In this document: one piece after another, positions 6,004-48,784 of the stretch
How positions within the stretch are numbered: position 1 is the stretch's first letter
Layout of the letters: each line of letters opens with the position of its first letter
NCBI GenBank assembly: GCA_016178945.1
Contig: JACOSH010000583.1
Coordinates: forward strand, 1-49,968
Source of the DNA: Acidobacteriota bacterium
GTDB lineage: Bacteria > Acidobacteriota > Terriglobia > Bryobacterales > Bryobacteraceae
Direction: 5' to 3'
DNA length: 49,968 bases
Translations under genes and position numbers: made by a program
Notes under the pieces: model-generated
What the model was told of the DNA's origin: nothing
The model's database searches: none
The model's input: only the letters and a program-made list of their open reading frames with translations

Positions 6004-7034
6004 TGGTTGTCTTCCTCCTGTTCTTTTTCGCGGCGGCGTCGATCCGCTTCGACGCCGCCTCCCAGCACTTCACGGTTTCGGGTTGGGACAAGAACTCGGA
6101 GTTTGCCGTCTATGTCGAGCGAAGCCCACCCGGCTCGCCGCCTTTGCTAGGCTCGTCCGAGGTCCAAGGAGACAGCCTCGTATTCCGGCCCCGCTTCGCT
6201 CTGCAGCCGGGGCTGGGCTACCGCGCCGTGCTGAAGACCGCGGCCGGAGAGATCGTCGAGCGATTTGAGATCCCCAAGCCGGCGCCGGTTTCGACCACCT
6301 ACGTGGCGCAGGTCTATCCTTCGGCCGCCATCCTGCCGGAAAACCAGCTCAAGTTCTACGTGCACTTCTCCGCACCCATGAGCCGTGGCGAGGCCCCGCG
6401 CCGGATTCGCCTGCTGGACGAAAACGGGGTTGCGGTCGAGCTGCCCTTTCTGGAGCTGGACGAAGAACTATGGGACCCGGAGTGGAAACGGCTCACGCTT
6501 CTGTTCGACCCCGGCCGCGTGAAGCGCGGGCTGATGCCGCGGCAGGAGGTCGGCGGGGCGCTGGTGGAGGGCCGCCGCTACAGCCTGGTCATCGACGCGG
6601 CTTGGCCGGACGCGGCGGGCAATCCCTTGCGCGAGTCATTTCGCAAGGACTTCCGCGTGGGGCCGGCCGATCGCCTGCCGATTGATCCCAAGCGCTGGCG
6701 GGTTAAGGCGCCCAAGGCCGGGACCCGCGACCCGCTGGTGGCGGACTTCGGCGAGCCTCTGGACCGCGCCCTTCTCGACCGGTTGTTGTCGGTGCCCGGC
6801 GTCGCGGGCTCGATCCGCGTCGATCGGGAAGAAACGCGATGGCAATTCACGCCGCGGGATTCCTGGAAGCCGGGACGCTACGAGCTGCGGATCGGCACGG
6901 CGCTGGAAGACCTGGCCGGGAATAAGGTGGGGCGGCCTTTCGATATCGACGTCTTCGAGCGGGTCAAGCGGCGCATCACTTCGGATTCGGTTTCGCTTCC
7001 GTTTCGAGTAGCGCCAGCGTCGCCCAGGCGGTAG
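6003..7034 (+). CDS. Secreted Ig-like (SbsA/Big_5-like) domain protein
   Basis: This 343-residue protein starts at a GTG overlapping the previous stop (TAGTG). A short hydrophobic N-terminus (MVVFLLFFFAAASIRF) is likely an export signal. The body contains Ig-like repeats typical of prokaryotic Big_5/SbsA domains: VYPSAAILPENQLKFYVHFSAPM (about residues 103-125) followed by a second unit ending WQFTPRDSWKPGRYELRIG and DLAGNKVGRPFDIDVFE. Such domains mediate adhesion or act as spacers in extracellular proteins; no enzyme motif is seen. Its last 59 bp overlap the 3' end of the convergent gene at 6976. It may work with the propeller-like protein encoded just upstream. Confidence 0.72.
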   Translation: MVVFLLFFFAAASIRFDAASQHFTVSGWDKNSEFAVYVERSPPGSPPLLGSSEVQGDSLVFRPRFALQPGLGYRAVLKTAAGEIVERFEIPKPAPVSTTYVAQVYPSAAILPENQLKFYVHFSAPMSRGEAPRRIRLLDENGVAVELPFLELDEELWDPEWKRLTLLFDPGRVKRGLMPRQEVGGALVEGRRYSLVIDAAWPDAAGNPLRESFRKDFRVGPADRLPIDPKRWRVKAPKAGTRDPLVADFGEPLDRALLDRLLSVPGVAGSIRVDREETRWQFTPRDSWKPGRYELRIGTALEDLAGNKVGRPFDIDVFERVKRRITSDSVSLPFRVAPASPRR

Positions 7035-7923
7035 TCGAGACGTGCTGGGCGTAGCTCCGGCCGCCAGGCGGGCGAGTGGTCTCGGGCCAGCCGCCAGTGG
7101 GAAGCTGCGTCGCGGCCAGAAATTTCCGCCCGCCCTCGACGGCGCTGGCGGGCCCGGCCTGCGAGTGCAGCGCCAGCAGAACCACGGCGGTATCGAAGAC
7201 CTCCGCGGGCGAGTTCGGGTACGGCCCCCAGCCGCCGTCTTTGGTTTGCGCGCGCAAAAGGAGGTCGACCCGCGGGCTTCCCGCCAGTGTCGCCACCGCC
7301 GCGTCGAGCGTGCTCTTAACCGGCGCAGCCAACAGCCAGCGCCTGGCGCGCATCCTGGCCTCCTGCCCCACTCCCGCGCGCTGTAGGGTGCGGTGCACCA
7401 GCCAGGTAGCAAGCCGGGCGCCGTAAGTGGCCGGTGAGCCCACTTCGGCTCCCGCATCGACCTGCCAGGATCCGTCCGCTTCCTGATAGGGCAGCAGGGA
7501 CTCGGCCGCCTGGACCAGAATCTTGCGGTCGGCGACCAAGCCCGATTGCACTGCTTCCGCCAGCGCCGCCGCAAACTGGATGCGGGCCAGCTTCTTGTCG
7601 CTGAATCCTGGATCGCCCCGGTTGTTGTCCCACTCCAGCGGGCGCATCAGCCATTGAGTAGTCTCAGCCAGAGCGACCGCCGGGGCTCTTGCGGCGTAGA
7701 GCGCCCGGGCGCCATCGCCATTGTTGTGACAGGAGAAGCAGTGGTTCTCGCGCGGCCAGGCCTGCACCTCGCGCGACAGATACTCGACGGCCCGCGCGGC
7801 CGGTTCTTGGGCCAGACCCGCCGCGCTGAGCGAGATCAACAGGACCGCCGGCGGAAGCCTCGTCGTACCTGTTCCACGCCGTGTGTGATCTGACACGCGC
7901 CTCCTATTACTCGTCTCATTCAT
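6976..7923 (-). CDS. Secreted alpha/alpha-toroid (prenyltransferase/squalene-oxidase repeat) protein with CxxCH
   Basis: The protein has 315 residues, with a hydrophobic export segment at about 25-38 (PPAVLLISLSAAGLA). A single haem-type motif C62-FS-C65-H66 follows. The rest shows repeats of the terpenoid cyclase/prenyltransferase toroid fold: LLPYQEADGSWQVD, LRAQTKDGGWGPYPNS and AATQLPTGGWPETT. The DxDD motif of squalene-hopene cyclase is missing, so cyclase activity is unlikely. A GTG at 7896 behind AGGAGG is an alternative start; TAGAAT overlaps the ATG at 7923, which favours the later start. The single haem motif suggests electron transfer or a redox sensor, but the role is unknown. Confidence 0.7.
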   Translation of the reverse strand: MNETSNRRRVSDHTRRGTGTTRLPPAVLLISLSAAGLAQEPAARAVEYLSREVQAWPRENHCFSCHNNGDGARALYAARAPAVALAETTQWLMRPLEWDNNRGDPGFSDKKLARIQFAAALAEAVQSGLVADRKILVQAAESLLPYQEADGSWQVDAGAEVGSPATYGARLATWLVHRTLQRAGVGQEARMRARRWLLAAPVKSTLDAAVATLAGSPRVDLLLRAQTKDGGWGPYPNSPAEVFDTAVVLLALHSQAGPASAVEGGRKFLAATQLPTGGWPETTRPPGGRSYAQHVSTTAWATLALLETEAKPNPK

Positions 7924-38750: not shown

Positions 38751-40603
38751 TACGGCAAGGAGTAAACCACCAGCGTATCGGAATACACTTCGTTGTATTT
38801 GTTCCCTCCCCCGGCCGCGATTGCCACAAACTGCTTGCCGGACCTCTTTCCACGATACGTCATCGGCGTGGCATGGGCGCTGGCGGGCAGTTTCGCCACC
38901 CAAAGCTCCTTGCCGCTCTCCTTGTCGAAGGCGCGGAAGCGCGCGTCGTTGGTGGCGCCGATGAAGACCAGGCCCCCGGCCGTGACCACGGAGCCGCCGA
39001 TGTTGGAGGTGCCCGTGGGGGGGATGCCTTTGGCGATCAGCTCATCGACCACGCCCAGGACCGAGCGCCAGCGAAACTCGCCGGTGGTGAGATCGATCGC
39101 CGTCAGATGTCCCCAGGGCGGCTGTTGGCAGGGATTGAGCTTCGGATCCCAGAAGCGCGAGTTGGGCGACCCCAGCCCCTGCGTGCGATAGGGGATCTGC
39201 GACCCCTCCGGCCGCTTGACCATGCGAAACACCATTCCGGCATCCATCGAGTTCACGTACAGGGTCTGCGTGCCGGGATCGAAGGACCCCCCGCCCCAGT
39301 TTGCGCCGCCGTTGGTGCCCGGGAACAGCACCGTCGGTTTCAAGCCGATGGGCGTGTAGAGGTCGCCGAACACCGCGCCTTCGATCAGTTTGGCGCAGTA
39401 GGCCCGGGATTCGGGTGTGACGTTGGTGAGTTCTTCCGCACGGAAATTCTGGCGCGCGAACGGCGGCGGCTTCACCGGACGCGGCTGGGTGGGCCAGGCT
39501 TGTTCTCCGGGCACTTCGCTGGCCGGGACCGGCCGCTCCTCGATGTCGAACAGCGGCCGGCCCGAGACGCGGTCGAACAGGAACACGTAGCCGGTCTTGG
39601 TGACTTGGGCGACCGCATCCACCAGCTTCCCGTCGCGGCGCGCCTGGACCAGGTTGGGCTGCGCCGGGATATCGTAATCCCAAATGTTGTGATGAACCGT
39701 CTGGAAGTGCCAGAGCCGCTTCCCGGTGGCGGCCTCCAGGGCCACCAGCGAGTCGCCGAACAGATTGGCGCCCTTGCGGTCTCCGCCGTACATGTCGGTG
39801 GCGGGCGAGGTCAGGGGCAGGAAGACGATGCCGCGCGCGGTGTCGACGCTCAGGATGGACCAGGCGTTGGCCGCGGCCCGGTCGCGCCAGGAGTCCTTGG
39901 CCCAGGTGTCGTTGCCGAACTCGCCCTCGCGCGGTACGGTGTGGAATTGCCAGACCAGCTTCCCCGTGCGCGCGTGAAAGGCGCGCACGTCGCCGGCGGG
40001 CCCCCGCGGTTCGCCATCCGCGGTGAGCGCGCCGCAGATCACCAGGTCCTTGTAGATCGCCGGCGGCGAGGTCATGCCGTAGCCCTTGCCCGGGAAGCGG
40101 TCCGCCACGCCCTGGCGCAAGTCGATCGAGCCGCCCTGGCCGAAGCTGTCGATGGGCTTGCCGGTGGCGGCCTGGATCGCAAACAGCCGGCCGCTCAAGG
40201 TGCCCAGAAACAAGCGGCGCTCCTGGCCGTCGCTCCAGTAGGCCGCGCCGCGGCTGATGAACAGGTTGTAGGGCCGCTCCCGGTCGATCTTCGGATCGAA
40301 GGTCCACAACTCCTTGCCGGTCTCGGCGTCGAGCGCGATCAAACGGTTGAACGGCGTGGTGAAATACATCACTCCGTCGACGACCAAAGGTGTGGTCTCA
40401 AACGCGCTGCGGACCGGCAGTGTCTTCCCGTCGCTGACGTCGCCGGTGCGATAGCTCCAGGCGACCTTCAGACGCGCCACATTGGAGCGATCGATCTGCT
40501 CCAGCGGCGAGTACTTCATGCCGCCCGGATCGCCGCCGTAGTGCGGCCACTCCTGGGCGGAGAGGGCGGCCGTGAGAATCAGGAGCGCGGGTCGGGTCCC
40601 CAT
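38750..40603 (-). CDS. PQQ-dependent dehydrogenase, membrane-glucose-dehydrogenase-like propeller, soluble
   Basis: The protein has 617 residues and a short signal peptide (MGTRPALLILTAALSAQ). The eight-bladed quinoprotein propeller begins at once (WPHYGGDPGGMKYSPLEQIDRSNVARLKVAW). Blade motifs include LIALDAETGKELWTF, VRAFHARTGKLVWQFH, LWHFQTVHHNIWDYDIPAQP and FRAFDKESGKELWVAKLPA. The HHNIWDYD stretch is typical of glucose/quinate-type PQQ dehydrogenases. The N-terminal membrane-helix domain of E. coli Gcd is absent, so this is a periplasmic form oxidising a sugar or polyol. It is 23 bp downstream of another quinoprotein gene and overlaps the small cytochrome gene, which may accept electrons. 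Confidence 0.88.
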   Translation of the reverse strand: MGTRPALLILTAALSAQEWPHYGGDPGGMKYSPLEQIDRSNVARLKVAWSYRTGDVSDGKTLPVRSAFETTPLVVDGVMYFTTPFNRLIALDAETGKELWTFDPKIDRERPYNLFISRGAAYWSDGQERRLFLGTLSGRLFAIQAATGKPIDSFGQGGSIDLRQGVADRFPGKGYGMTSPPAIYKDLVICGALTADGEPRGPAGDVRAFHARTGKLVWQFHTVPREGEFGNDTWAKDSWRDRAAANAWSILSVDTARGIVFLPLTSPATDMYGGDRKGANLFGDSLVALEAATGKRLWHFQTVHHNIWDYDIPAQPNLVQARRDGKLVDAVAQVTKTGYVFLFDRVSGRPLFDIEERPVPASEVPGEQAWPTQPRPVKPPPFARQNFRAEELTNVTPESRAYCAKLIEGAVFGDLYTPIGLKPTVLFPGTNGGANWGGGSFDPGTQTLYVNSMDAGMVFRMVKRPEGSQIPYRTQGLGSPNSRFWDPKLNPCQQPPWGHLTAIDLTTGEFRWRSVLGVVDELIAKGIPPTGTSNIGGSVVTAGGLVFIGATNDARFRAFDKESGKELWVAKLPASAHATPMTYRGKRSGKQFVAIAAGGGNKYNEVYSDTLVVYSLP

Positions 40604-40626
40604 GAGCGGATAGCGTATCGCAACGC

Positions 40627-42228
40627 CTACTCAATCTTGATTTTGGGCAGGGCCACCGGCCGGACCGGCTCAAACAGCCCGAAGGAGAAGATCGCCGTCG
40701 CCGAGGCGATGGCCACATACTGCTTGCCGTCGACCGCGTAGGTCATGGGGGATGCGGTCAGCCCTTCTCCCATCTGGAAATGCCACAGATGTTTCCCATT
40801 GCGCGCATCGAGCGCCACCAGTTGGCCGTCGTCGTCGCCAAAGAACACCACCCCGCCGGCGGTCGACACGGTTCCGGCCCAGGACTCGCCGGGACCCGTC
40901 ATGGGATACTCCCACTTGCGCTCGCCGGTCTTGGGATCGTAAGCCCGCAGGAAGAACTGTCCCACCTCGGACGGCTTGGGTCCCGCCCCGCCGCCCGAAA
41001 AATTCTTCTTGGGCTCGGGCTCTTTCGCCGAGCTGGTGTAGAGGTCGCACTGCTCCAGAGTCACGACATACAGCAGGCCGGTCGACGGGTTGAAGGAGGG
41101 CGACATCCAGTTGGTTGCGCCGCGCACGCCCGGGCAGGCCCGAGTGCCTTCCGGCGTCGGGTCCTTGCCGGGAATCAGGATGGGCCGTCCCTTGGCGTCG
41201 ATCCCCGAAGCCCAGTCCAGCTTGTCGACCAGGCGCGTGGCGTTGAGGAACTCGCCCGTCACCCGGTTCAGCACGTAGAAAAAGCCATTGCGGTTGGCGT
41301 GCAGCACCAGTTTCTGCGGGGAGCCTTTGTAAGGCAGATCCACCAGCACGGGCCACGCCTGCGCGTCCCAGTCGTGGGTGTCGTGGGGCGTGAACTGGAA
41401 ATGCCACTTCTTCTTGCCGGTGTCGGCATCCAGCGCCAGCAGCGAGCAGGAATAGAGATTGTCTCCGCCGCGGTCGCCCCCGTAAAAATCGGGCCAGGGA
41501 TTGCCCGTGGTCCAGTAGACGACATTGAGCGCCGGATCATAGGTTCCCGAGAGCCACGTCGCGCCGCCGCCGTAGTCGACGTACTTGCCCCAGGTCTCCG
41601 AGCCCGGCTCGCCCTTGGCCGGGATGGTGTAGGTCCGCCACAGCTCCTCGCCGGTCGATGGGGAAATGGCGGTGACGTAGCCGCGCATGCCGGTGTCGCC
41701 GCCGGACACGCCGACCAGCACCTTGTCCTTCAAGACGAGCGGCGCCGCCGAGGCGTACAGGCCGTCCTCGGTGCTGCCGTACTTCTTCTGCCAGAGCACG
41801 GCCCCGGTACGGCGATCGAGCGCCACCAGGTAGATGTCCGAGGTGACAAAGAACACGCGGTCGCCCAGGATCGCCGCGCCGCGATTCACGTCCTGCTTCT
41901 TGGAACGGCCCTCCTTGTACTGCCAGATAAGCCGGCCGGTGCGGGCGTCCAGCGCGCGCAGCTCGTTGGAGTTGGTGATGTACATCACGCCGTCATAGAC
42001 GATGGGACAGGTGCGCAGGCCGTTGGCCTTGGCAATGTGGTGCACCCACTGAGGTGTGAGCGATCCGGCGTTGTCAACAGTGATCTGTTTCAGCGCGCTG
42101 TGGCGCTGGCCCTGGTAGTCGCCGGCGTAGGTGAGCCAGTTCTCTCCAGGGCCTTTCAAGATATCTTCAAACCGCACCTGTCCGGAGGCGGCGCCCATCA
42201 GAGTCAGATACAGACATAGATTGCGCAT
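40627..42228 (-). CDS. PQQ-dependent alcohol dehydrogenase-like quinoprotein
   Basis: The protein has 533 residues and a signal peptide (MRNLCLYLTLMGAASGQ). The fold starts GENWLTYAGDYQGQRHSALKQITVDNAGSL, which is the alcohol dehydrogenase (methanol/ethanol) version of the PQQ propeller. Blade motifs include LRALDARTGRLIWQYK, VALDRRTGAVLWQKK, LLALDADTGKKKWHFQ, PHDTHDWDAQAWPVLVD and LVALDARNGKHLWHFQMG. The vicinal Cys-Cys disulfide of classical enzymes is not seen; the matching loop reads VGVSGGDTGMRG. Substrate is unknown. The start overlaps the stop of the upstream cytochrome (TAATG), so the cytochrome is probably its electron acceptor. Confidence 0.88.
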   Translation of the reverse strand: MRNLCLYLTLMGAASGQVRFEDILKGPGENWLTYAGDYQGQRHSALKQITVDNAGSLTPQWVHHIAKANGLRTCPIVYDGVMYITNSNELRALDARTGRLIWQYKEGRSKKQDVNRGAAILGDRVFFVTSDIYLVALDRRTGAVLWQKKYGSTEDGLYASAAPLVLKDKVLVGVSGGDTGMRGYVTAISPSTGEELWRTYTIPAKGEPGSETWGKYVDYGGGATWLSGTYDPALNVVYWTTGNPWPDFYGGDRGGDNLYSCSLLALDADTGKKKWHFQFTPHDTHDWDAQAWPVLVDLPYKGSPQKLVLHANRNGFFYVLNRVTGEFLNATRLVDKLDWASGIDAKGRPILIPGKDPTPEGTRACPGVRGATNWMSPSFNPSTGLLYVVTLEQCDLYTSSAKEPEPKKNFSGGGAGPKPSEVGQFFLRAYDPKTGERKWEYPMTGPGESWAGTVSTAGGVVFFGDDDGQLVALDARNGKHLWHFQMGEGLTASPMTYAVDGKQYVAIASATAIFSFGLFEPVRPVALPKIKIE

Positions 42229-43046
42229 TACTTAGATTCCTCTTTCTTCTTCTTGGGCTCCGGCGGGCGGAGGCTCTGCCGGCTCAGATACGCCACCAGG
42301 TTGTCGATCTCTGGCTTGCCGAGCCGCTGGGCGAAATCTTTGGGCATCGGCGAGCCTTTGGTGAGGGTCAGCTCGCTGACCTCGGCCATTGACAGCAGGT
42401 GCAGATTGCCGTCGGCGTCCTGAAGCTGAAGCGAGTAGTTGGTCCGGTTGCGCGCCACGCCCCGCAGCGTCTTGCCGCTCTTCAACACCACCGTCGCGCC
42501 GCGGTAGTTCGGCGCGCCGTCGGCGTCCGGATCCACGATGGCCTCGCGAAGCTGCGGCGCCGCGCGAGTGGCCCCGATATTGGTGAGATCGGGACCCAGC
42601 TTCCCGCCGCGTCCCTGGATCTGGTGGCATCCACTGCACCCGGCCTTGCCCCAGAACAGCTCCTGGCCGATTTTCACATCGCCGGCCACCGGGTTCTCGT
42701 AGGCCGGAGAGGTCAGCGATCGCACGAACGCCACCACCTGCCAGGCTTGGTCTTCCGGCAGGTTGGCCGCCGGCATTCCCCCGCCGGGAATCCCTTTTTG
42801 GATGGCGCTGAAAAGGGTGTCGTCCTCGAGGGGATGCCACATCACGCGCTCGCGTAGGTTGGGCCCGCGCCCCCCTTGTCCCTCGGCCCCGTGACAGGCT
42901 GCACAACCGCCGCCAAACAGCGTACGGCCGGCCTCGATCGCCTTGGCATCGCCGATGAACGGATGCTTGGGCTTCTCGCCTTCCTTCTCGTGCTGAGCCG
43001 CCACAGGCCAGGCAGCGGCCAGGCAAAGAGCCACGCAGAATCGCAT
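42228..43046 (-). CDS. Di-haem cytochrome c with C-terminal planctomycete/Verrucomicrobium-type haem-binding domain
   Basis: The protein has 272 residues. The start at 43046 gives a signal peptide (MRFCVALCLAAAWPVAAQ); the frame runs further upstream to 43124 but overlaps the divergent gene. There are two haem motifs, C48-AA-C51-H52 (in GGCAACHGAEGQGGRGPNL) and C137-SG-C140-H141. The second is followed by LGPDLTNIGATR and a beta-rich end (YRGATVVLKSGKTLRGVARN, MPKDF), the layout of the putative haem-binding domain known from Pirellula and Verrucomicrobium. The lysine-rich C-terminus (KKKKEESK) may help docking. It heads the quinoprotein operon and probably carries their electrons in the periplasm. 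Confidence 0.88.
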   Translation of the reverse strand: MRFCVALCLAAAWPVAAQHEKEGEKPKHPFIGDAKAIEAGRTLFGGGCAACHGAEGQGGRGPNLRERVMWHPLEDDTLFSAIQKGIPGGGMPAANLPEDQAWQVVAFVRSLTSPAYENPVAGDVKIGQELFWGKAGCSGCHQIQGRGGKLGPDLTNIGATRAAPQLREAIVDPDADGAPNYRGATVVLKSGKTLRGVARNRTNYSLQLQDADGNLHLLSMAEVSELTLTKGSPMPKDFAQRLGKPEIDNLVAYLSRQSLRPPEPKKKKEESK

Positions 43047-43122: not shown

Positions 43123-44388
43123 ATGATTTTCCCTGGGCTTCATGAACAACTCCCGGACGTCCCGCCGCAGGTCCTCTGGAAGACGGAGTTGCTTTTCCGC
43201 GGCGTCCGGTTTACAGAGGCGCTTGCGCAGGCCGCGGCGCAGGGGGCGGCGCCGAATTTCTGGCCCTACTGCAAGTCCACTGATGACGGCCGCCGTCAAT
43301 ACATTCCCGTGCCGTATCTGTTCCGCCTGGATGGCGGGAGCGTGGCTCGTGTCCGCGTGGATGACAGCAGCCCGCTTGAAGTGCGGCGCGCTGCCGGGCA
43401 GGGATTCATGCTGTGGCACGGGGACCAGGCCGTGTGCGCCATCGATTTCGTGCCCGCCCACGCCTGGCACTCCTTCCGCACGCGCGACGGACTCACGCAG
43501 TTCGAAGCGGGTGTCGAGCAGCTCGGGGACATGCTGGTTGTCAACGTCGCGCCGGGGTGTGAGTATCACCGCGTGAAAGATGACGGCGGCCGGTCGCTGC
43601 GCTGCGGTTTCTGCGCCTATGGCCGGTTCGGACAGCGCTCAGCGGCGCTGGGGCAGGCGCCCGGACGTGTGGCGCCCGACCCGGACACGCTCGCTCGCCT
43701 CGAAGAGGTGCTGGCCTACGCCGCCCAGACCGGCGAGGTGCGTCATGTCTACCTCACGGGCGGCTCGCTGCTCGACCCGGCCCAGGAAGCCGAGCGCTTC
43801 TTGCCCGTCGTTGAAACCGCGCGCCGGGCCGTCGGCGATCGGCTGCGCGTCACCTGCGGATCCGGCGCCGTCGATCCGGCCGACTCGGAGCGTTATCGCC
43901 AGGCTGGCGCGGATAGCTGCTGTTACAACCTGGAGGTCTGGGACGAAGAGACCTTCCGCGCGACTTGTCCGGGCAAGGCAAAGTTCGTCGGGCGCCAGCG
44001 CTGGATCGACGCGCTACTCGGCGCGGTCGAGGTCTTCGGGCGCAGTAACGTGGGATCGGCTTTCGTGGCCGGGCTCGAGCTGGGGCCTCCCGCCCCAGGC
44101 ATGCCGCCCGAACGGATGCTGGAGAGCATCGCCGAAGGGGCCGCCTTTTTTCTCGACAGCGGCATCGTGCCCCTCTACTCTCCTCTATGGCCGATGCAAG
44201 GGACCGCCTACCAGCCCGAAGATGGGCTTTCGCCCGAGCTCTACGTCCGGCTGGAAATGGAGGTCTATCGCCTCCGGGCCGAGCGGGGCTTCCCGGTACC
44301 GGAGTGGCTGATCTGCCCCGGCTGCTCTTACATGTTGCTGGAGGTGGACCTGGATCGCGCTCTGGGGCTGGCGCTCCGGGAAGCCTAG
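43123..44388 (+). CDS. Radical SAM-like protein with atypical C-x14-C-x2-C cluster motif
   Basis: The protein has 421 residues, starting at an ATG with GAGG 5 bp upstream. The usual CxxxCxxC is replaced by GCEYHRVKDD... followed by RCGFCAYGRFG, that is Cys, 14 residues, CxxC, at about residues 146-164. The rest fits a radical SAM barrel: VYLTGGSLLDP resembles the GGE motif, then LRVTCGSGAVDP, DSCCYNLEVWDEETF and VGSAFVAGLELG. The N-terminal ~140 residues (FWPYCKSTDDGRRQ, VPYLFRLDGG) form a separate domain, and a late CPGC (residues ~405-408) could bind more metal. The substrate is unknown. It is divergent from the PQQ operon and 48 bp before hrcA. Confidence 0.75.
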   Translation: MIFPGLHEQLPDVPPQVLWKTELLFRGVRFTEALAQAAAQGAAPNFWPYCKSTDDGRRQYIPVPYLFRLDGGSVARVRVDDSSPLEVRRAAGQGFMLWHGDQAVCAIDFVPAHAWHSFRTRDGLTQFEAGVEQLGDMLVVNVAPGCEYHRVKDDGGRSLRCGFCAYGRFGQRSAALGQAPGRVAPDPDTLARLEEVLAYAAQTGEVRHVYLTGGSLLDPAQEAERFLPVVETARRAVGDRLRVTCGSGAVDPADSERYRQAGADSCCYNLEVWDEETFRATCPGKAKFVGRQRWIDALLGAVEVFGRSNVGSAFVAGLELGPPAPGMPPERMLESIAEGAAFFLDSGIVPLYSPLWPMQGTAYQPEDGLSPELYVRLEMEVYRLRAERGFPVPEWLICPGCSYMLLEVDLDRALGLALREA

Positions 44389-44395
44389 TCTTGTC

Positions 44396-44424
44396 TTGAC
44401 CGTTGCTTTTCAGTCAGATAGAAT
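44396..44424 (+). promoter_or_regulatory. Sigma-70-like promoter of hrcA
   Basis: TTGACC (44396-44401) and TAGAAT (44419-44424) are separated by exactly 17 bp, starting 8 bp after the stop codon of the upstream gene. The start site would fall near 44431, right at the AGGAG ribosome binding site (44431-44435), so the leader is extremely short. No CIRCE inverted repeat (TTAGCACTC-N9-GAGTGCTAA), the normal HrcA operator, is visible. Confidence 0.55.
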
Positions 44425-44436
44425 GACGGTAGGAGT

Positions 44437-45471
44437 ATGCGAATCGAGAATTCGCTGAACGCTCGCTCGCGGGAGATCCTGGAGTCGATCGTCAGGACCT
44501 ATATCGCCACTGGAGAGCCGGTCGGTTCGCGTACCCTGTCCAAGCGCCACCGCGACGGGCTGAGTCCGGCCTCGATTCGCAATGCCATGGCCGACTTGGC
44601 CGAGGAAGGGTACCTGTCGCAGCCGCACACCTCCGCGGGACGGATTCCCACCGGCAAAGCCTTTCGCCATTACGTGCGGTCCCTGGCGGTGGGGCGAATC
44701 GCTCCGGCCGAGGCTCAGCGCGTGCACGCGGAGCTGCGCGGCGTCGACACCCTGGAAGAAAAAATCGAGCGCTCCTCGCGTATCCTGACCGAGCTGACCC
44801 ACAACGTCGGGATTGCCGCGGCCATGCCGGCTTCTGGCCAGGTACTGGATCAAATCGAGCTGCTGGCACTGGCCGACGGCCGCGTGCTCCTGATTCTGGT
44901 CACCCGCGACCGCGTGGTGCGCAACCGCGTGGTCACCCTGGAAGAGCCGGTGACGCAGGATGAGCTGGTATCGATCCGCAATTACGTGAACCGGAACTTC
45001 AGCGGCTGGTCGCTGCGGGAAGCTCGCCTGGAGCTGCTGCGCCGCATGGACGTCGAGCGCGCCGTCTACGACGGCCTGATGCGCAAGCTGCACGTGCTCT
45101 ACAGCAAAGGGCTGCTGGATCTGGATCAGTCGCCCGAAGTCCACATGGAAGGCGCGTCCAACCTGTTCGGCATCGACCTGCACCTGACCCGCGAGAAGAT
45201 GCGCGACTTGCTGCACGCGCTGGAAGAGAAGAAGCGGCTGGTGGAGCTGCTGGACCGCTTCCTGGAGGAATCCGGCGGCGAATTGCAGGTCCAGGTCGGC
45301 TTGGGCGAGGCCCATCCGGCCATGGCCGAGCTGGCGCTGATCGGCATCTCCGTCCGCATTCCCAGCGGTCTGACGGCGCGCATCGCCGTGCTCGGCCCCA
45401 TGCGCATGCATTACGGCCGGGTGATGGGAGCGGTGCTGCACATCGGCAGGACCTTCCAAAGCGTGATCTGA
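44437..45471 (+). CDS. hrcA: Heat-inducible transcription repressor HrcA
   Basis: The protein has 344 residues and AGGAG before the ATG. The N-terminal winged helix carries strong family motifs: RSREILESIVRTYIATGEPVGS, LSPASIRNAMADLAEEGYL and PHTSAGRIPTGKAFRHYV. The central and C-terminal parts (GASNLF, GLGEAHPAMAELALIGIS, GPMRMHYGRVMGAVLHIG) also match. HrcA represses chaperone genes by binding CIRCE operators. It leads a hrcA-grpE-dnaJ cluster, the common bacterial arrangement except that dnaK is missing between grpE and dnaJ. Its targets may lie elsewhere, because no CIRCE is found here. Confidence 0.96.
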   Translation: MRIENSLNARSREILESIVRTYIATGEPVGSRTLSKRHRDGLSPASIRNAMADLAEEGYLSQPHTSAGRIPTGKAFRHYVRSLAVGRIAPAEAQRVHAELRGVDTLEEKIERSSRILTELTHNVGIAAAMPASGQVLDQIELLALADGRVLLILVTRDRVVRNRVVTLEEPVTQDELVSIRNYVNRNFSGWSLREARLELLRRMDVERAVYDGLMRKLHVLYSKGLLDLDQSPEVHMEGASNLFGIDLHLTREKMRDLLHALEEKKRLVELLDRFLEESGGELQVQVGLGEAHPAMAELALIGISVRIPSGLTARIAVLGPMRMHYGRVMGAVLHIGRTFQSVI

Positions 45472-45507
45472 TTCGCCGTTCCGTTCGCGCTCTCTACGAG
45501 AACCGGG

Positions 45508-46083
45508 ATGGGTTTTGTTAATCTAGACAATGTGAGCGACGAGAATCAGGAGACCCCGCTGGAGGACACCACTACCCAGGCCCTATCCGACCCGGTGATC
45601 GAAGAGGGCTTGGCGGAAAAGCTGGCCGCCGTCGCCGCCGAACGCGACCAGTTGGGGGCGGAGAAAGCGGACTTAACCGACCGGCTGCTGCGCCGCCAGG
45701 CGGAATTCGAGAACCTCCGCCGGCGCGCCGAGCGCGACCGCCTCGAGTTCGTTCAATACGCCGGCGCCGAGATAATGCGCGACATCCTGCCCGCGGTGGA
45801 CGATTTTGAGCGGGCCCTCAAAGTGGAATCGGCCGATGCCGAGTACCGGAGGGGCGTCGAGTTGATCTACCAGCGCCTGCTGGAGGCGCTGAAGAAGGCC
45901 GGGCTGGAGCCCATGGAGTGCGCCGGAAAGCCCTTCGATCCCAACCTCCATCAGGCCGTGGATCGAAAAGAAACCGAGGAGGTGGAAGATCAGACCATCC
46001 TCGAAGAGTACCAGCGGGGATACAGTTTCAGGGGAAAGCTGCTGCGCCCCGCCATGGTCAAGGTTGCCGTCCGACCGTCGTAA
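45508..46083 (+). CDS. grpE: Nucleotide exchange factor GrpE
   Basis: The protein has up to 191 residues. A disordered acidic N-terminus precedes the long coiled coil (about 40-100; LLRRQAEFENLRRRAERDR) and the C-terminal beta domain (GLEPMECAGKPFDPNLHQAV, EYQRGYSFRGKLLRPAMVKVA), all typical of GrpE. GrpE releases ADP from DnaK. It is 36 bp after hrcA and 3 bp before dnaJ. A GTG at 45532 is an alternative start, giving MSDENQETP...; the acidic N-terminus does not decide between them. No strong ribosome binding site precedes either. Confidence 0.94.
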   Translation: MGFVNLDNVSDENQETPLEDTTTQALSDPVIEEGLAEKLAAVAAERDQLGAEKADLTDRLLRRQAEFENLRRRAERDRLEFVQYAGAEIMRDILPAVDDFERALKVESADAEYRRGVELIYQRLLEALKKAGLEPMECAGKPFDPNLHQAVDRKETEEVEDQTILEEYQRGYSFRGKLLRPAMVKVAVRPS

Positions 46084-46086
46084 GCC

Positions 46087-47202
46087 GTGACAAAACGAGA
46101 TTACTACGAAATCCTGGGCATCGACCGAAGTGCCGGCGATGGGGAGTTGAAGTCCGCCTACCGGAAGCTGGCCTTGCAGTATCATCCTGACCGCAATCCC
46201 GGCAACCATGAGGCCGAGGAGAAGTTCAAGGAAGCCGCCGAGGCCTACGGCGTGCTGAGCGATCCCCAGAAGAGGGCCACCTACGATCGTTTCGGCCACC
46301 AGGGATTGCAAGGGGCGGGCGCGGGCTTCGATCCCACGCAGTTCACCGATTTCGGCGATATCCTGGGCGACCTGTTCGGGCTCGGCGACATGTTCGGCGG
46401 CGGCGCCCGGCGGCGCACCCGGGCCCAGCGCGGCGAGGATCTGCGCTACGACCTGGAGATCGACTTCGAGGACGCGGCCTTCGGTATGACCGCCGAGATC
46501 CAGGTGCCGCGCCTGGAGGCCTGCAAGCGCTGCGGCGGCAAGGGCGCCGAGCCGGGCAGCGGAACGGTGACCTGCCCCACCTGCCGCGGGCGCGGCGAGG
46601 TGGTCTACCAGCAGAGCTTTCTTTCCATCCGGCGCACCTGCGGCCAGTGCAACGGGAGCGGCGAGACCATCCGCCAGCACTGCCGCGAGTGCCATGGCGA
46701 AGGATACAAACAGGTGGAGCGCAAGCTCAAGGTCAACATCCCGGCTGGGGTCGACAACGGCACGCGCATGAGACTGTCTCACGAAGGGCAGCCCGGCCTG
46801 AACGGCGGGCCCACCGGCGACCTGTACGTGGTCTTGAAGGTGCGGGAGCACCCCTTCTTCGAGCGCCGCGACTCCGACCTCCACTGCACCATTCCCGTCA
46901 ACGTGGCCCAGGCCGCGCTCGGCGCCGAGATCGCGGTGCCCACGCTGGGCGGGGGCAGCGAGCTTCTCAAGATCCCCGAAGGCGCCCAGAGCGGCTCGCG
47001 ATTCCGCATCCGCAATCAGGGCATCTCGCACGTCAACGGCCACGGGCGCGGCGACTTGTACGTGCACTTGGAAGTGAAGGTTCCCTCCAAGCTGTCCAAG
47101 GCGCAGCGCGACCTGTTTGAGAAGCTGCGCGAGACTTTGCCTGCGGAAAACGAGCCGGCCGAGAAGGGCATCTTCGACAAGGTGAAGGATTATTTCATGT
47201 AG
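46087..47202 (+). CDS. dnaJ: Chaperone protein DnaJ
   Basis: The protein has 371 residues and a GTG start 3 bp after the grpE stop. Domains in order: J-domain (1-70) with the DnaK-stimulating HPD in [11 protein letters not shown]; Gly/Phe-rich linker ([21 protein letters not shown]); zinc domain with four CxxCxGxG units (from Cys146: [32 protein letters not shown]); and a C-terminal substrate-binding region. This is a full type I DnaJ, not a CbpA-like short form. It works with DnaK and GrpE in folding; dnaK is not in the window. Confidence 0.96.
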
Positions 47203-47203
47203 T

Positions 47204-47229
47204 GACAGAGCCGCGACCGTAAGGGAGCG
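47204..47229. repeat. Copy of a GCGACCGTAAGGGAGCG-type dispersed intergenic repeat, truncated
   Basis: The stretch from GACAGAGCCGCGACCG through TAAGGGAGCG fills the gap between dnaJ and the next gene. I recall this sequence as a dispersed intergenic element in Acidobacteria and Planctomycetes; read backwards it gives the familiar spurious peptide LPYGRGSV. The complete element would pair GACCG with CGGTC around TAAGGGAG; here the right arm is lost and the sequence runs straight into the ribosome binding site of the next gene. The identification is from memory. Confidence 0.45.
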
Positions 47230-47242
47230 TTTTAGGAGGCGC

Positions 47243-48784
47243 ATGGGAAGAATTCTGTGGTGCACGGGCGCCTTCGCGACGGCGCTGCTGCTGGCGCAGC
47301 CGGCCGGCACGCGGCGGATTTCGCTCGAAGAGCTGCACGACCGGATCGAAGGGGGCTGGGCAGGCCAGATGATTGGCGTCAGCTTTGGCGCGCCCACCGA
47401 GTTCCGCTTTCTGGAGCGGATCAACGAGGGCGAGCTGCCCAAGTGGACGCCCGGCCGCGTTTCCAACGCGCTGGATCAGGACGATCTCTACGTCGACATG
47501 ACCTTTGCCAAGGTCCTCGATGACAAAGGTCTCGACGCCACCACCGAAGACTTCGGCGCCATGTTCCGGGAGGCCCGCTACCGCCTGTGGCACGCCAACC
47601 TGGCGGCGCGGCGCGCGCTGAAACGCGGAGTCCAGGCGGCGCTGGCCGGCACGCCCAAGTACAACGCGCACGCCAACGACATCGATTTCCAGATCGAATC
47701 GGACTTCATCGGCCTGATGGCGCCCGGCCTGCCCCGCGCCTCCAACGACCTGTGCTGGCGCGCCGGCCGCGTCATGAACCACGGCGATGGCATCTATGGC
47801 GGCATGTTCGTCTCCGGGATGTACGCGGCCGCCTTCTTCGAGAGCGACCCGCGCCGCGTCGTGGAAGCCGGCTTGGCCTGCCTGCCGCCCCAGAGCCCGT
47901 ATGCCCGGGTGATCTCCGACGTGCTGGCCTGGTCCCGGCAGCACCCCAACGACTGGCGCCGGACCTGGCATCTGATCGAAGACAAGTGGAACAAGCGCGA
48001 GCCCTGCCCGGAGGGAGCCAACAAGCCCTTCAACATCGACGCGAAGTTCAACGGCGCCTACATCGCCCTGGGTCTGCTCTATGGCCAGGGCGATTTCTGG
48101 AAGACGCTGGAGGTCGCGACGCGCGCCGGCCAGGATTCGGACTGTAATCCCTCCAATGCCTGCGGCGTGCTGGGCGTGATGCTCGGATACAAGAGAATCC
48201 CGGAGGAGTGGAAGGGCGGCATCCCCAAGCTGGCCGATCAGAAGTTCAACTACACCGAATTCTCCTTCAACTCGATCGTGGCCAGCACCCAGAAGCGCGC
48301 CATCGCGCTGGTGGAGCGAAACGGCGGCCGGCTGGAAGGCCAGACGCTGGTCGTGAAGGTGCAGTCGCCCGTGCCCGCCAAGCTGGAGTTGTGGGACGAC
48401 TATGGTTCGCCGGTCGAGCGCGTCGCCGCCGCAGACCCGCGCTGGAGATGGAGCGGCGTCTGGAAGACGCCGCCCAAGTCCAACGGCAAACTGGCCAGCG
48501 AGAAGAGCGCCGCGGCCGAGATCCAATTCGACGGGACGGGCGCCATCGTCGTGGGACCCTACCTGCCCACCGGCGGGCGCGCGGATGTCTATCTGGACGG
48601 CAAGCTGGACAAGACCATCGACGTGTACCCCGACGAAGATTCCACCAAGCGCGGCGAATCGGTCTGGCATGCCTTCGGATTGAAGAACGGGCGCCACGCG
48701 ATCCGCCTGGTGGTGCGCGGCGAGCCCTACTCCGGCTCGAAAGGCAGCGACGTGGGGATCGACGCCCTGGTCGTGTTCCGGTAA
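47243..48784 (+). CDS. Secreted ADP-ribosylglycohydrolase-fold protein with C-terminal beta-sandwich
   Basis: The protein has 513 residues, AGGAGG before the ATG, and a signal peptide (MGRILWCTGAFATALLLAQP). The ADP-ribosylglycohydrolase fold spans about 25-340: GGWAGQMIGVSFGAPTEF, QDDLYVDMTFA, NHGDGIYGGMFVSGMYAAA and GQDSDCNPSNACGVLGVMLG, with the Asp residues expected to bind two Mg ions. Residues ~390-513 form a beta-rich domain (DVYLDGKLDKTID, HAIRLVVRGEPYS) like carbohydrate-binding modules. Classical members remove ADP-ribose from proteins inside cells; an exported member with a sugar-binding-like domain more likely acts on another N- or O-glycoside. The substrate is unknown. Confidence 0.85.
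   Translation: MGRILWCTGAFATALLLAQPAGTRRISLEELHDRIEGGWAGQMIGVSFGAPTEFRFLERINEGELPKWTPGRVSNALDQDDLYVDMTFAKVLDDKGLDATTEDFGAMFREARYRLWHANLAARRALKRGVQAALAGTPKYNAHANDIDFQIESDFIGLMAPGLPRASNDLCWRAGRVMNHGDGIYGGMFVSGMYAAAFFESDPRRVVEAGLACLPPQSPYARVISDVLAWSRQHPNDWRRTWHLIEDKWNKREPCPEGANKPFNIDAKFNGAYIALGLLYGQGDFWKTLEVATRAGQDSDCNPSNACGVLGVMLGYKRIPEEWKGGIPKLADQKFNYTEFSFNSIVASTQKRAIALVERNGGRLEGQTLVVKVQSPVPAKLELWDDYGSPVERVAAADPRWRWSGVWKTPPKSNGKLASEKSAAAEIQFDGTGAIVVGPYLPTGGRADVYLDGKLDKTIDVYPDEDSTKRGESVWHAFGLKNGRHAIRLVVRGEPYSGSKGSDVGIDALVVFR

Follow-up and report, generated by a model that had tools for sequence, protein, structure and literature searches.

Gene and genomic context

We analysed a stretch of 49,968 nucleotides of a genome of Acidobacteriota (hereafter the window). 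Its forward strand carries an intact open reading frame at 43123..44388, which starts with ATG and encodes a protein of 421 residues matching the radical SAM family NF045502 (variant_rSAM) and the Pfam model PF04055. In the translation, residues 146-164 read CEYHRVKDDGGRSLRCGFC and constitute a putative cluster-binding loop, Cys146-x14-Cys161-x2-Cys164 (43558..43614, +), which is six residues longer than the usual x8 of the family; the spacing of 14 and 2 was thus exactly as the first-pass annotation had reported. This loop is preceded by an N-terminal domain common to the family (approximately residues 16-136; 43168..43530, +). It is followed by TGGS (residues 212-215; 43756..43767, +), which occupies the position of the SAM-binding GGE-type motif and by analogy may bind SAM. 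The alignment further revealed a family signature, N-x-E-x-W-D-x3-F-x3-C-P-G-K (residues 269-285; 43927..43977, +). Near the C-terminus, we found the CPGC that had been noticed before (residues 398-401; 44314..44325, +).

Upstream on the opposite strand (38753-43046, -) lie genes for a cytochrome c, with two successive matched stretches, and for two PQQ-type beta-propeller dehydrogenases, which together probably form one electron-transfer unit. Downstream on the same strand (44437-48781, +), hrcA-grpE-dnaJ are followed by a gene for an ADP-ribosylglycohydrolase-domain protein, and no dnaK was found in this stretch. A sigma-70-like promoter match (TTGACC-17-TAGAAT; 44396..44424, +; 10 of 12 positions, as a consensus match only) precedes hrcA, which suggests that hrcA-grpE-dnaJ form a separate transcription unit. 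As had been proposed, the genome context of the homologues was compared, and an all-against-all comparison of flanking ORFs detected no neighbour common to the four close orthologous loci. The radical SAM gene stands alone.

Family assignment and predicted fold

The protein scored above the curated cut-offs of both PF04055 (Radical_SAM, 33.6 bits vs 29.5) and NF045502 (175 bits vs 125), the latter match being nearly full length (residues 17-376, model positions 5-346 of 357). On these matches, it can be assigned to the radical SAM enzymes, as the first-pass annotation had supposed, and among the radical SAM models to NF045502, a catalogued but uncharacterised family. The three close orthologues and two remoter acidobacterial proteins also exceeded the NF045502 cut-off, and proteins from Streptomyces and Agrobacterium and of the MSMEG_0568 type likewise pass it. 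With regard to TIGR04043, the model of the MSMEG_0568 family, the score of 60.2 bits was far below the equivalog cut-off of 303.7, and this identity was rejected. Our literature search found nothing on NF045502, its biochemistry or radical SAM enzymes with Cx8Cx2C.

The N-terminal domain had been regarded as unique, but it is a family trait because the NF045502 model begins inside it. Within it, K20, L24, G27, P64, G72 and V77 each recur in over 90% of the aligned relatives, and S83 and G123 are also conserved. Most members of NF045502 share this N-terminal domain, and the first cysteine spacing is widened in every member (x8 or x9). From the cysteine pair to E271, remote profile matches were obtained to biotin synthase, aminodeoxyfutalosine synthase, PylB and HydE.

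An AlphaFold model built from a four-sequence alignment was weak (mean pLDDT 53.2, pTM 0.58), with pLDDT below 50 in the cysteine loop and the C-terminus; strands and helices alternate between about residues 187 and 345. The PDB folds closest to the model were those of lipoyl synthase, biotin synthase, ThiH and HydE, in agreement with the profile matches. These matches support membership of the radical SAM superfamily rather than one precise relative, because the TM-scores, normalised by query length, were low (about 0.2-0.4), with TIM-barrel enzymes of no known relation ranking just below.

Cysteine spacing and the subclade

It is evident that C146, C161 and C164 are invariant in all 28 aligned rows, and G213 and G214 of TGGS are kept in 96-100% of them. 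Shuffling the protein sequence produced a Cx14Cx2C pattern 0.4% of the time; given this frequency, the conservation of the cysteines in relatives and the scores above curated cut-offs, the pattern is not due to chance. The first-pass annotation took 3 and 2 as the expected spacing and the deviation as exceptional. The canonical Cx3Cx2C is indeed absent here, but it is usual rather than required, as QueE, HmdB and ThiC deviate too (PMC4389238), and among the 24 remoter relatives aligned 23 have Cx8Cx2C and the remaining one, the MSMEG_0568 (Nit1C) protein, has Cx9Cx2C. Moreover, a precedent for x14 exists in QueE, whose cluster site is canonical and whose Cx14Cx2C goes with a single extended loop (PMC4389238).

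Within the close clade, x14 is shared by the protein of the window and two orthologues (P0002 and P0003), and the third orthologue (P0004) has x8, the near-general pattern of the other members, which describes the aligned NF045502 proteins and is not known as part of the family definition. P0004 branches outside the three x14 proteins with fork support of 85/72. The simplest reading of this alignment would be a single in-frame insertion, which added six residues to an already long loop, and the direction of the change, from x8 to x14, is inferred from a fork of moderate support. As judged from the aligned proteins, the protein is a modest length variant inside NF045502, not a new kind of enzyme, since its spacing amounts to six extra residues in a loop that is long throughout the family.

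All four close members retain C398 and C401 of the C-terminal CxGC, whereas most of the wider family carries other residues at these positions. At a comparable place, the sequence of the MSMEG_0568 protein is rich in cysteines. C245, C266 and C267 are also retained in the four-member subclade.

Distribution

Only three further genomes, each of them an acidobacterial MAG, were found to encode a close orthologue, with identities of about 65-72% (72, 67 and 66%). The four proteins form one clade with full support and a long stem, and the deeper placements in the tree are unsure as some remote branches are long. The remoter members (about 25% identical) are spread across the class; the wider relatives were drawn from genome searches and from plasmid records. 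In the scans of genome contigs, a pattern derived from the single protein found no relative, and patterns derived from the alignment found the same three MAGs only, these patterns being few and of limited sensitivity. The viral contigs scanned gave no relative, and phage records gave one weak match.

Several observations on other radical SAM proteins were made in passing. A remote relative occurs in 507 plasmid records, 369 of them from Klebsiella. Two loci of the same bacterial family (L025 in G545 and L026 in G507) encode a further radical SAM group with CITFSNKKECAFC (x8) and a C-terminal CVRC, which is distinct both from the present clade and from the P0005-like group. At another locus (L015:9874-13203), a P0005-type radical SAM gene is followed by a gene resembling molybdopterin oxidoreductase by its N-terminus; this pair is not conserved in the short flanks of other members.

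Discussion

We consider it highly probable that the protein performs radical SAM chemistry as a member of NF045502 with an expanded cluster loop, a judgement that concerns the chemistry and the family and leaves aside the substrate and the role of CxGC. It would be a stand-alone enzyme, whose barrel core is nearest the group of lipoyl synthase, biotin synthase, ThiH and HydE. Cys146, Cys161 and Cys164 may hold the [4Fe-4S] cluster via the 14-residue loop, much as the extended loop of QueE does. SAM bound at the cluster and TGGS would then be cleaved reductively to give the 5'-deoxyadenosyl radical, which in turn may take a hydrogen from a small-molecule substrate. The CxGC would probably sit near the mouth of the barrel, where it may help to ligate an auxiliary cluster or serve as a redox thiol pair.

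The absence of an evident substrate or partner, as stated by the first-pass annotation, holds for the window, though the relatives offer one weak partner lead, the ebo cluster, which has been tied to precursor transfer into the periplasm in scytonemin synthesis (PMC6282210). In one carrier (G036), the same strand carries, directly downstream of the radical SAM gene (L012, about 6170-7435), an O-methyltransferase gene and then an ebo-type cluster with genes for UbiA, a 3-dehydroquinate-synthase-like protein, a TatD-like protein, a xylose-isomerase-like protein and a phosphodiesterase; together these span L012:7452-14777. Of the four carriers, three possess an EboD-like gene, vs seven of 61 relatives (hypergeometric p ~0.004, for a partner picked after seeing it and uncorrected for that choice and for kinship); the corresponding figures within the order are two of three carriers vs nine of 257 genomes, a set overlapping the former. 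The enzyme could thus be a tailoring step, together with the O-methyltransferase, for an ebo (EDB)-linked metabolite, which would be compatible with radical SAM chemistry. On the other hand, searches of the genome of the window (92% complete) found no EboD- or EboE-like gene, the ebo genes of two carriers (G011 and G058) are on a different contig from the radical SAM gene, a close copy of the O-methyltransferase occurs in only two of the four carriers, and most ebo genomes are devoid of the radical SAM gene, so that we regard this role as unlikely. Also unlikely is a functionally new subfamily, in which the lengthened loop and CxGC would make a new site for a substrate or an auxiliary cluster serving an ebo-linked metabolite, and whose members have so far been found only in Acidobacteriota.

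A role in a nitrile-related pathway, like that of the relative MSMEG_0568, could be imagined from the weak TIGR04043 match (60 bits) and the homologous cysteine loop and barrel. MSMEG_0568 is the third gene of the Nit1C nitrilase cluster and was placed closest to the biotin-synthase-related COG2516 (PMC1199592). However, the match is far under the equivalog cut-off and none of the flanking ORFs scanned at the four loci was recognised as a nitrilase, GNAT or AIR-synthase-like gene, making such a role very unlikely. Similarly, the sporadic distribution, with four close members found, might be expected of a degenerate or non-catalytic protein, but the three cysteines, TGGS and the family signature are kept across proteins 65-72% identical and the frame is intact in all four genomes, and we give this explanation very little credence. 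QueE (7-carboxy-7-deazaguanine synthase) is not known to carry the N-terminal domain. The identical spacing notwithstanding, no QueE model or structure was matched at E values up to 10, and this identity was rejected on the model scores; moreover, x8 in P0004 indicates that x14 arose independently of QueE. A QueE-type enzyme is therefore extremely improbable here.

Under the preferred reading, radical SAM chemistry within NF045502, the protein draws attention to a small and so far unstudied subclade from Acidobacteriota within an uncharacterised family. Orthologues about 65% identical can differ by six residues in the interval between their first two cluster cysteines, and thus the spacing of the motif on its own is a poor indicator of novelty among radical SAM enzymes.

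Among known systems, the protein resembles the NF045502 members most, in the near full-length match, the N-terminal domain, the widened first cysteine spacing and the NxExWD...CPGK signature, though it differs by 14 vs 8 residues in the cysteine loop and by the C-terminal CxGC, and shares only some 25% identity with the aligned members beyond its four-protein clade. The MSMEG_0568 family has a homologous barrel and also a non-canonical spacing (x9), whereas the present protein is accompanied by no recognised Nit1C genes. The group of biotin synthase, lipoyl synthase, HydE and ThiH provides the best remote matches in both sequence and fold, but the cysteine spacing and the N-terminal domain are different, and the auxiliary-cluster ligands of that group were not recognised in our protein. 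Finally, QueE has the same Cx14Cx2C spacing (PMC4389238) but no detectable sequence relation.
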